From positions 1-37,557 of the forward strand of contig CAMBAJ010000017.1 of assembly GCA_945864305.1 (NCBI GenBank): a DNA stretch of 37,557 nt. The letters are read 5' to 3'. The position numbers were made by a program, and so were the translations under genes. This DNA is from an uncultured Clostridia bacterium. Its GTDB lineage: Bacteria; Bacillota; Clostridia; Oscillospirales; Oscillospiraceae. The notes beneath the pieces are model-generated. The model did no database searches and had not been told where the DNA came from. It saw only the letters and a list, made by a program, of their open reading frames with translations. Every line of letters starts with the position of its first letter. The first letter of the stretch is position 1. Below are positions 15,921 through 17,502 of the stretch, piece after piece.

Positions 15921-17300
15921 TCAATACCGGCCCAGGGAGGCGGCGGTATCAGAGGTGGCGCTCTTGCCAAAGTGGAAGTCGTTGCCGGGCAGGATGGCGT
16001 TGAGAACGATGCCGGCAATGGCGGCGATGGCCAGAGAGGTCAGGGTGATGGATGCACCGCCCACGGTGAAGGTCAGGCCGTTGGTGAAACCCAAGCCGCA
16101 CACCAGGATGACGGCGGCAATGATGAGATTGCGGCTGTTGGTGAAGTCCACCTGGTTCTCCACCACGTTCCGCACGCCGATGGCGGAGATCATGCCGTAG
16201 AGGATGAAGCTGACGCCGCCGATGATGGCCGCGGGGATGGTGTTGACGAGATAGGCAAAGGCAGGGCTGAAGGAGAGGATGATGGCATAGACGGCAGCCA
16301 GACGGATGACCTTGGGGTCATGGACCCGGGAGAGCACCAGCACGCCGGTGTTCTCTCCGTAGGTGGTGTTGGCGGGGCCGCCGAAGATGGCGGACAGAGA
16401 GGTGGCGATGCCGTCGCCAATGAGGGTGCGGTGCAGGCCGGGGTCCTCGATGAAGTTCTCACCCACGGTGGCGGAGATGGCGGACATGTCGCCGATGTGC
16501 TCCATCATGGAGGCGATGGCAATGGGGGCCATCACCAGGATGGCGGAGATATCAAACTTGGCGATGCTGCCGCCAAAGTCGGTGACAAAGGGCTGGAAGC
16601 CCAGCAGCGGGGTGGCGCCGCCGAACAGACCCTGGACATCCAGGCCGGAGAAATCCACCATGCCGGCCACCAGAGCCACCACATAAGGGATGACCACGCC
16701 CAGCAGGATGGGGATGATCTTGACCATGCCCTTGCCCCAGATGTTGGCCACCACGATGACGGCGATGGACACCAGCGCCAGCCACCAGCAGGTGGAGGCA
16801 TTGGACACCGCGGAGGGAGCCAGATTCAGTCCGATGAGGATGATGATGGGACCGGTGACGACGGGGGGCAGGTAGTGCATAACCCGATGGACGCCCACCG
16901 CCTTGATGATGAGGGCCAGCACCACATACAGAAGGCCCGCCACCACGATGCCGCCGCAGGCGTACTGCAGCTTTTCACCGGCCTCCATGGCCGCGTACAT
17001 GCCGCTGTCCATGGCTCCCATGGCGGCGAAGCCGCCCAGGAAGGCGAAGGAGGAGCCCAGGAAAGCGGGCACCTTCATCTTCGTGCAGAAGTGGAAGAAC
17101 AAGGTGCCGAAGCCGGCGAAGAACAGCGTGGTCTGGATGGACAGAGGCAGGCCGTAGCTCTGGACCAGGATGGGCACCAGCACGGTGGCGCCGAACATGG
17201 CGAACATGTGCTGCAGACCCAGGATCAGCATTTTGGGCACCCCCAGGGCGCGGGCGTCCCGGATGGGCTGCTGACCGATATCAGGTTTCTTTTCATTCAT
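15921..17300 (-). CDS. uraA: Uracil permease (NCS2 family)
   Basis: Proton-coupled uracil importer of the inner membrane, about 459 residues with 14 hydrophobic segments. It matches UraA closely: LQHMFAMFGATVLVP (helix 1), KVPAFLGSSFAF (helix 3), MMEHIGD with the substrate-binding Glu (about residue 267), DPGLHR, and NTTYGENTGV with the second key Glu (about 316). These motifs favour uracil over xanthine. The longest frame begins at a GTG within the leader; the ATG at 17300 with AGAGGAG upstream is preferred. It is preceded by a leader ORF and an intrinsic terminator, so transcription is probably attenuated in response to pyrimidine supply. Single-gene unit. Confidence 0.92.
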   Translation of the reverse strand: MNEKKPDIGQQPIRDARALGVPKMLILGLQHMFAMFGATVLVPILVQSYGLPLSIQTTLFFAGFGTLFFHFCTKMKVPAFLGSSFAFLGGFAAMGAMDSGMYAAMEAGEKLQYACGGIVVAGLLYVVLALIIKAVGVHRVMHYLPPVVTGPIIILIGLNLAPSAVSNASTCWWLALVSIAVIVVANIWGKGMVKIIPILLGVVIPYVVALVAGMVDFSGLDVQGLFGGATPLLGFQPFVTDFGGSIAKFDISAILVMAPIAIASMMEHIGDMSAISATVGENFIEDPGLHRTLIGDGIATSLSAIFGGPANTTYGENTGVLVLSRVHDPKVIRLAAVYAIILSFSPAFAYLVNTIPAAIIGGVSFILYGMISAIGVRNVVENQVDFTNSRNLIIAAVILVCGLGFTNGLTFTVGGASITLTSLAIAAIAGIVLNAILPGNDFHFGKSATSDTAASLGRY

Positions 17301-17338
17301 ATCAGTTTTTTCTCCTCTCTTTTGTTGCACACAGGGGC

Positions 17339-17365
17339 AAAAAAAATACCGGCACTCCAGCCGGC
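17339..17365 (-). terminator. Attenuator terminator upstream of uraA
   Basis: GCCGGC (17360-17365) pairs with GCCGGT (17348-17353, one G-U) around a six-base loop, followed after one base by eight T residues on the minus strand (17346-17339). It lies between promoter and gene, so it must be bypassed for uraA expression. Confidence 0.8.
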
Positions 17366-17443
17366 TCAGAAAATGGAAATCCCATAAAAATAAGGAAAAG
17401 AAGAAACCTCCGCAGCTTTCATGTTGCGCGTCATCAGCAGCAT
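17366..17443 (-). CDS. Putative 25-residue leader peptide controlling uraA
   Basis: A short open frame between the uraA promoter and the attenuator terminator. It starts at ATG 17443, seven bases after AGGGGGAG (17451-17458), a strong ribosome site, and encodes a peptide beginning MLLMTRNMKAAEV and ending in Ser/Phe/Pro/Tyr/Ile codons. The second half is very U-rich in the RNA (runs of UUUU and UUUUU). The TGA stop abuts the first base of the terminator stem, so a ribosome that keeps up with polymerase would cover the hairpin. This is the logic of the enteric pyrBI (pyrL) attenuator, where low UTP makes polymerase pause in U-rich sequence. No PyrR-binding motif was seen. The peptide itself probably has no function. 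Confidence 0.6.
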   Translation of the reverse strand: MLLMTRNMKAAEVSSFPYFYGISIF

Positions 17444-17473
17444 ACCAGTCTCCCCCTCTCGTTATTTTGGTCT

Positions 17474-17502
17474 ATTATACAGAAAGGGCCTTTGCTTTGC
17501 AA
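17474..17502 (-). promoter_or_regulatory. Promoter of the uraA leader
   Basis: -35 TTGCAA (17497-17502) and consensus -10 TATAAT (17474-17479), spacer 17, on the minus strand. The start point would be near 17467, about 24 bases before the leader ORF. Confidence 0.75.

Follow-up and report, generated by a model that had tools for sequence, protein, structure and literature searches.

How could uracil uptake be controlled in a clostridial bacterium in which the expected regulator is not found? Firmicutes are expected to use PyrR for pyrimidine attenuation, and PyrR-dependent attenuators (RF00515) turn down pyrimidine genes at a terminator. The window, which is the whole stretch of 37,557 nucleotides analysed here, contains a permease gene preceded by a short reading frame and an intrinsic terminator.

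Layout of the permease leader

As listed in Table 1, the whole arrangement is on the minus strand and runs from the sigma-70-like promoter (17502) to the end of the permease gene (15921). The first-pass annotation had described a promoter, a strong ribosome site, a 25-codon ORF, a TGA at the stem and eight Ts; its coordinates and letters proved right, and the U-rich second half of the ORF was confirmed on the minus strand. The TGA directly abuts the first base of the terminator stem (17366 and 17365, respectively), and the eight Ts are located 3′ of the GC-rich hairpin.

Table 1. Features of the permease leader and its gene in the window
Feature	Position	Strand	Basis
Promoter TTGCAA-17-TATAAT	17474..17502	-	10/12 consensus matches
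Predicted ribosome-site helix, 5′ arm	17447..17468	-	Fold; cognate preference; without fixed-register covariation
Leader ORF ribosome-binding site GAGAGGGGGAGA	17449..17460	-	Anti-SD duplex -11.1 kcal/mol
Leader ORF MLLMTRNMKAAEVSSFPYFYGISIF, 25 codons + TGA	17366..17443	-	ATG 17443, TGA 17368-17366
Predicted ribosome-site helix, 3′ arm inside U-rich tract	17387..17408	-	Fold; caveats as for 5′ arm
U-rich second half of leader ORF, proposed UTP-dependent pause region	17369..17407	-	Letters; leader comparison
Intrinsic terminator GCCGGC-TGGAGT-GCCGGT (stem 17365-17348) then ATTTTTTTT	17339..17365	-	Hairpin prediction
Permease gene ribosome-binding site	17311..17320	-	Letters
NCS2 uracil-type permease gene (uraA), ATG 17300	15921..17300	-	TIGR00801 over cut-off

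It is the combination of these parts, not the terminator or the fold alone, that exceeds chance. The terminator by itself is no rarer than chance in the window (1 found, 0.8 expected), and the predicted fold of the 193 nt of leader, terminator and permease start does not surpass its shuffles, 40 of 200 being equally good (z -0.82). One promoter pair was found in the window versus 0.3 expected in shuffles; comparable TTGCAA/TATAAT-like pairs were seen by eye in many of the 36 printed upstream regions. In contrast to the terminator and the fold, the complete set of a ribosome site, an ATG, a U-rich ORF and a stop at a terminator was matched only once on the two strands of the 37.5 kb window. The same scan was extended to 504 kb from 101 sources, mostly Oscillospiraceae, in which the window and the copy of it in its own genome are separate entries. 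Its matches were the permease leader in 39 sources and a single further site, which is weak and not associated with a permease. A known riboswitch was rejected, as the leader gave no Rfam match over the gathering score.

Two neighbouring elements were also observed. Upstream of the promoter (about 17555-17520, minus strand) there is one ACAATTT...TTTTT stretch, similar by eye in several relatives, which is perhaps a regulator site or a promoter up-element. One lysine riboswitch (RF00168, 80.9 bits; 15727-15552, minus strand) is located upstream of an NhaC-like antiporter gene (15479-13737), whose putative product is probably a lysine transporter.

Identity of the permease

Judged by its relatives, the regulated gene appears to encode a uracil-type permease. 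In the profile search, the window permease is over the cut-off of TIGR00801; the uracil-permease equivalog ranks second, under cut-off (288 versus 477 bits). The best solved relative is E. coli uracil permease, with E between 8.8e-58 and 3.1e-56 for the uracil permeases of PDB entries 8omz, 5xls and 3qe7. The TTYGEN motif is kept, and EHVGH has become EHIGD, with Asp in place of the second His of E. coli UraA.

The gene context in relatives gives further information. In five genomes (G183, G335, G148, G363 and G079) pyrR is the immediate neighbour of a permease gene for which the search gave no leader; these orthologues are 59-61% identical, and the leaderless loci directly adjoining pyrR are L207, L209, L211, L212 and L217. 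Permease orthologues are therefore linked to pyrR, and this context together with the solved relatives indicates that the gene downstream of the leader is a pyrimidine gene.

The leader frame and its stop are conserved in relatives

Orthologues were gathered from named contigs (the best 80 matches listed) and from further genomes. We analysed 163 non-identical upstream regions, in which the terminators were called and then the ATG with the best ribosome site was chosen, with stops ignored. Eighty regions lack a terminator over the score, two lack an ATG and six (L022, L035, L070, L102, L163 and L167) were left out for a weak ribosome site; the remaining 75 were compared.

The stop of frame 0 is within -3 to +12 nt of the terminator stem in 61 of the 75 leaders (later in 11, earlier in 3), whereas the corresponding counts for frames 1 and 2 are only 2 and 3, respectively; because related species are not independent, these counts are not probabilities. 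The frame reaches the stem in 72 leaders. Anything between 34 and 103 nt separates their ATG from the stem, while the stop keeps close to the stem; in the commonest position, found in 27 of the 72, the last base of the stop is the first base of the stem. The three early stoppers are L182, L061 and L064, the last two titled Butyrivibrio and Eubacterium; for L182 the start was mis-picked, and an adjacent start reads on by eye. The hairpin itself is kept, with a stem sequence that varies by group (CCGGC, CAATCAC and GGTCA types). The leader peptide sequence is not conserved, and an 18-leader alignment revealed no conserved sequence or loop beyond the terminator, the ribosome site and the ATG.

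Such a frame and stop mark the leader as probably translated, with the delivery of a ribosome to the terminator as its purpose. The first-pass annotation had named loss of the frame or of the stop-to-stem distance in relatives as refuting its pyrBI-like attenuator; both are conserved, and the comparison supports that reading.

In the genus of the window genome, 14 of the 15 orthologues pass the automatic leader test, and the fifteenth (L095) has a leader by eye. The family set covers 72 of the 73 orthologues, as G269 was left out (the match there starts at base 34 of its contig). Forty-three of the 72 pass, including L176, whose upstream region is identical to that of L014, and 29 are without a leader by this test. 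Outside this count, frames running into the terminator were seen by eye in L095, L178 and L194, and perhaps also in L163, L167 and L173. Among the matches listed, no locus titled Lachnospiraceae passed the test.

Several leaders differ in detail. The ORFs of L015 and L095 (the latter by eye and outside the 75) traverse the terminator, and their stops overlap the permease ATG, which suggests translational coupling. In L163, L167 and L173 the terminator loop contains a U-rich stretch, and by eye the frame seems to stop within this loop; L172 resembles these three, but its frame stops before the hairpin.

U content is selected at the nucleotide level

The codon and U analysis was performed on 67 leaders, which are the 72 that reach the stem minus near-duplicates, and the permease codon figures come from 32 genes. 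In successive 10-nt steps towards the stem, the U content is 46%, 51% and 55%. A makes up just 7-10% of the last 30 nt, so the U-richness is not plain AT-richness. In the last 12 leader codons, 55% of third positions are U, compared to 14% in the permease genes; U-rich codons are thus kept in related leaders, as the first-pass annotation had proposed to check.

The same preference is visible within synonymous codons. The U use in leaders and permease genes is 0.73 and 0.27 for Phe, 0.80 and 0.05 for the L4 group of Leu, 0.69 and 0.09 for Val, 0.81 and 0.07 for Cys, and 0.75 and 0.25 for Ile, respectively. Synonymous choice favours U in 10 of the 11 codon groups tabulated (Phe, Ser, Pro, Val, Ile, Tyr, Leu, Cys, Arg and Ala), and Gly is the sole group without it. 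Because the peptide varies while the U content and the synonymous U bias are kept, selection appears to act on the RNA letters, not on the amino acids. U-ending codons are rare in the 32 permease genes, so the U codons of the leader could serve ribosome speed instead.

PyrR and the pyrimidine genes

No PyrR RNA motif (RF00515) was found in the 61 genus genomes, the window genome included, and so the earlier remark that the leader shows no PyrR-binding motif extends to whole genomes. Nor did any of these 61 genomes give a PyrR protein over cut-off. The search controls, B. subtilis among them, gave a positive signal; completeness is 90% or more and contamination 5% or less in 31 of the 61 assemblies. 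Weak protein matches occur in 58 of the 61 genomes, with scores up to 32 bits where the cut-off is 138; they are taken to be other phosphoribosyltransferases. PyrR control of the window leader was rejected, as the genome gave neither the protein over cut-off nor the RNA motif.

Among the 73 orthologue-bearing genomes of the family, seven have PyrR: the five with pyrR beside the permease gene, G308, and G269, which is outside the 72 compared for leaders. Nearly all genomes with the U-rich leader have no PyrR: it is present in 1 of the 43 genomes with the leader versus 5 of the 29 without it, the one genome with both being G308 (L198). The clusters of pyrR and permease seem to stand in for the U-rich leader, and two of the pyrR genes, those of G183 and G335, are preceded by a PyrR motif below threshold. 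However, a swap between leader and PyrR explains only a part of the distribution, because 24 of the 29 leaderless genomes are also without PyrR over cut-off.

We also considered whether the leader serves a wider regulon. No leader of this type was found before pyrC, upp or carA of the window genome, so any such UTP sensing is not general to the pyrimidine genes of this genome. None was found in the pyr-operon stretches of five relatives either. With these negatives and the single weak non-permease match in 504 kb, the regulon idea was rejected.

Proposed mechanism

Ribosome-coupled UTP attenuation has been worked out in enteric pyrBI, where pausing that depends on UTP links termination to the position of the leader ribosome. 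We consider it likely that the window leader is a UTP-sensing, translation-coupled transcription attenuator which works like that of E. coli pyrBI. Transcription would start just upstream of the 25-codon ORF. When UTP is plentiful, RNA polymerase would cross the U-rich half fast and the ribosome would lag behind, so that the terminator folds and the permease gene is not transcribed. When UTP is scarce, polymerase would pause in the U-rich tract, and the ribosome could catch up and reach the stop at the stem. Its footprint there would block the hairpin; polymerase would read into uraA, and uracil uptake would rise.

This reading builds on features found by comparing sequences, namely the layout, the conserved frame and stop, the selection for U and the lack of PyrR over cut-off in the genus genomes searched. 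From these we infer leader translation, pausing, coupling and a UTP response, and the presumed direction of the response is borrowed by analogy from pyrBI. As stated in excerpts of PMC4824070 and PMC5021804, coupling in the pyrBI leader stops its terminator from working. The main doubt on a pyrBI-like mechanism is coupling itself. According to the review PMC7858274, transcription outruns translation in B. subtilis, and short stop-to-terminator distances are a proxy of this. For 67 ordinary genes in the loci studied here, the median stop-to-terminator distance is 12 nt, which leans to poor coupling.

If the proposed mechanism holds, dozens of Oscillospiraceae species share a conserved design that depends on coupling; some Firmicutes would then still be able to link ribosome and polymerase where it matters, and the uraA leader would give a natural reporter for testing this coupling. 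The leader also points to a possible way of controlling pyrimidine uptake in gut bacteria where no PyrR was found, and its contrast with the pyrR-permease clusters makes an evolutionary case.

Alternative readings of the U-rich leader

One alternative refines UTP sensing and does not replace it. The U-rich tract may pair with the ribosome site of the leader and hide it, with UTP setting how long the site remains open; loading of a ribosome in time would lead to read-through and no loading to termination. In the predicted folds of 63 of the 67 leaders, the ribosome site forms pairs within the last 55 nt. However, 588 of 670 dinucleotide-shuffled 3′ arms also pair, and much of the pairing is therefore due to composition. 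The whole window leader folds no better than shuffles, and MAFFT with RNAalifold recovered the terminator only and no ribosome-site helix.

Comparison of the leaders gave positive results in the free-register tests and a negative one in the fixed-register test. Cognate arms reach -20.96 kcal/mol versus -18.93 kcal/mol for swapped arms, and none of 20,000 permutations was as good; the preference persists for swaps inside similarity clusters (z -4.1 to -5.0). For arm swaps between near relatives, the tally in favour of cognate pairing was 220 better and 115 worse, compared to 183/151 and 181/154 in the two negative controls. These controls gave z -0.48 and -1.68, and the second value counts against the lock. 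The segment from the ribosome site to the ATG shows a cognate preference by itself (p 0.00045), but neither the outer arm nor the ribosome-site core does so when taken singly. Compensatory changes in fixed register show no excess, at 0.46 compared to 0.46-0.48 in the slid controls. In E. coli K-12 pyrL (L224), the ribosome site (7 of 12 nt) is likewise predicted to pair with a U-rich run, yet 358 of 500 shuffles do equally well.

With this mixed evidence, the predicted lock on the ribosome site is plausible as a refinement, and we regard control by timely ribosome loading as possible rather than likely. One U-rich stretch in Firmicutes may even combine three jobs, as a UTP timer, as the coding sequence that leads to the terminator and as a lock on its own ribosome site, so that only a ribosome loaded in time would keep the gene on; we judge this combination rather unlikely.

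Alternatively, the leader may be a general translation sensor, in which read-through tells only whether the leader is translated, under a translation-inhibiting drug or with growth rate, and the U tract just delays polymerase. Such a sensor would fit a frame that is conserved without its peptide, and a U tract would serve any coupling attenuator. However, the scan of 504 kb placed the leader before this permease and at a single weak place besides, and the permease has a pyrimidine link; we hold a general sensor to be improbable.

U-rich single-stranded RNA is a common protein target, and an RNA-binding protein could recognise the tract or the hairpin, as PyrR does with its own motif. PyrR is the sole trans-factor that was searched for in the genus genomes, which leaves room for such a protein. 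Nevertheless, the 18-leader alignment offers it no conserved site outside the terminator, the ribosome site and the ATG, and the conserved frame and stop would go unexplained, so that we find this reading very improbable.

The least probable reading is a sensor of the phe or his type, in which termination depends on a ribosome stalled on a Phe- or Ser-rich leader peptide: of the 67 leaders, 63 have Phe and 59 have Ser among their last 12 codons, but the synonymous bias to U disfavours an amino acid sensor, in agreement with the first-pass annotation, and the target is a uracil-type permease with orthologues beside pyrR. An attenuator of this class is further disfavoured, since there is no fixed run of codons for one amino acid and the stop sits at the stem, not more than 20 bp away as specified in the excerpt of PMC4824070.

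Comparison with known systems

In the open-licence literature, as far as the accessible excerpts go, no U-rich uracil permease leader and no pyrBI-like attenuator in Firmicutes was found. The leader-peptide attenuators that excerpts describe in Firmicutes include his leaders of bacilli (PMC2965389) and of three lineages (PMC9413887), both with stretches of His codons and the latter with antiterminator structures, an S. aureus BCAA leader peptide called leucine-rich (PMC5794164) and one hflX uORF candidate in Bacillales (PMC8632094). The window system shares with them a short leader ORF before a Firmicutes gene, but it has no amino acid run and no conserved peptide, and its stop is at the stem. 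Different from PyrR attenuators, the leader ORF is conserved, and the 61 genus genomes show neither PyrR over cut-off nor its motif.

The closest comparison is pyrBI of E. coli and Salmonella, with its leader peptide gene pyrL. Excerpts of PMC4824070 place the terminator of amino acid attenuators more than 20 bp from the leader gene and that of pyrBI inside it. By eye, the peptides of pyrL and of the window-type leaders have no evident relation. The E. coli pyrL stop ends 47 nt past the stem start, whereas the stop of the window-type leaders usually touches the stem. These leaders are U-rich up to the stem; pyrL is 40% U in the last 30 nt and 20% in the last 10, and its U run precedes a terminator located inside the ORF. 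The window system also differs in belonging to Firmicutes and in having an uptake gene, not aspartate transcarbamylase, as its target. In the folds inspected no antiterminator was seen, and for the window leader the terminator and the upstream helix are predicted within one structure. Like pyrBI, the window system has a U-rich leader that would be translated, an intrinsic terminator within reach of the ribosome and a pyrimidine target.
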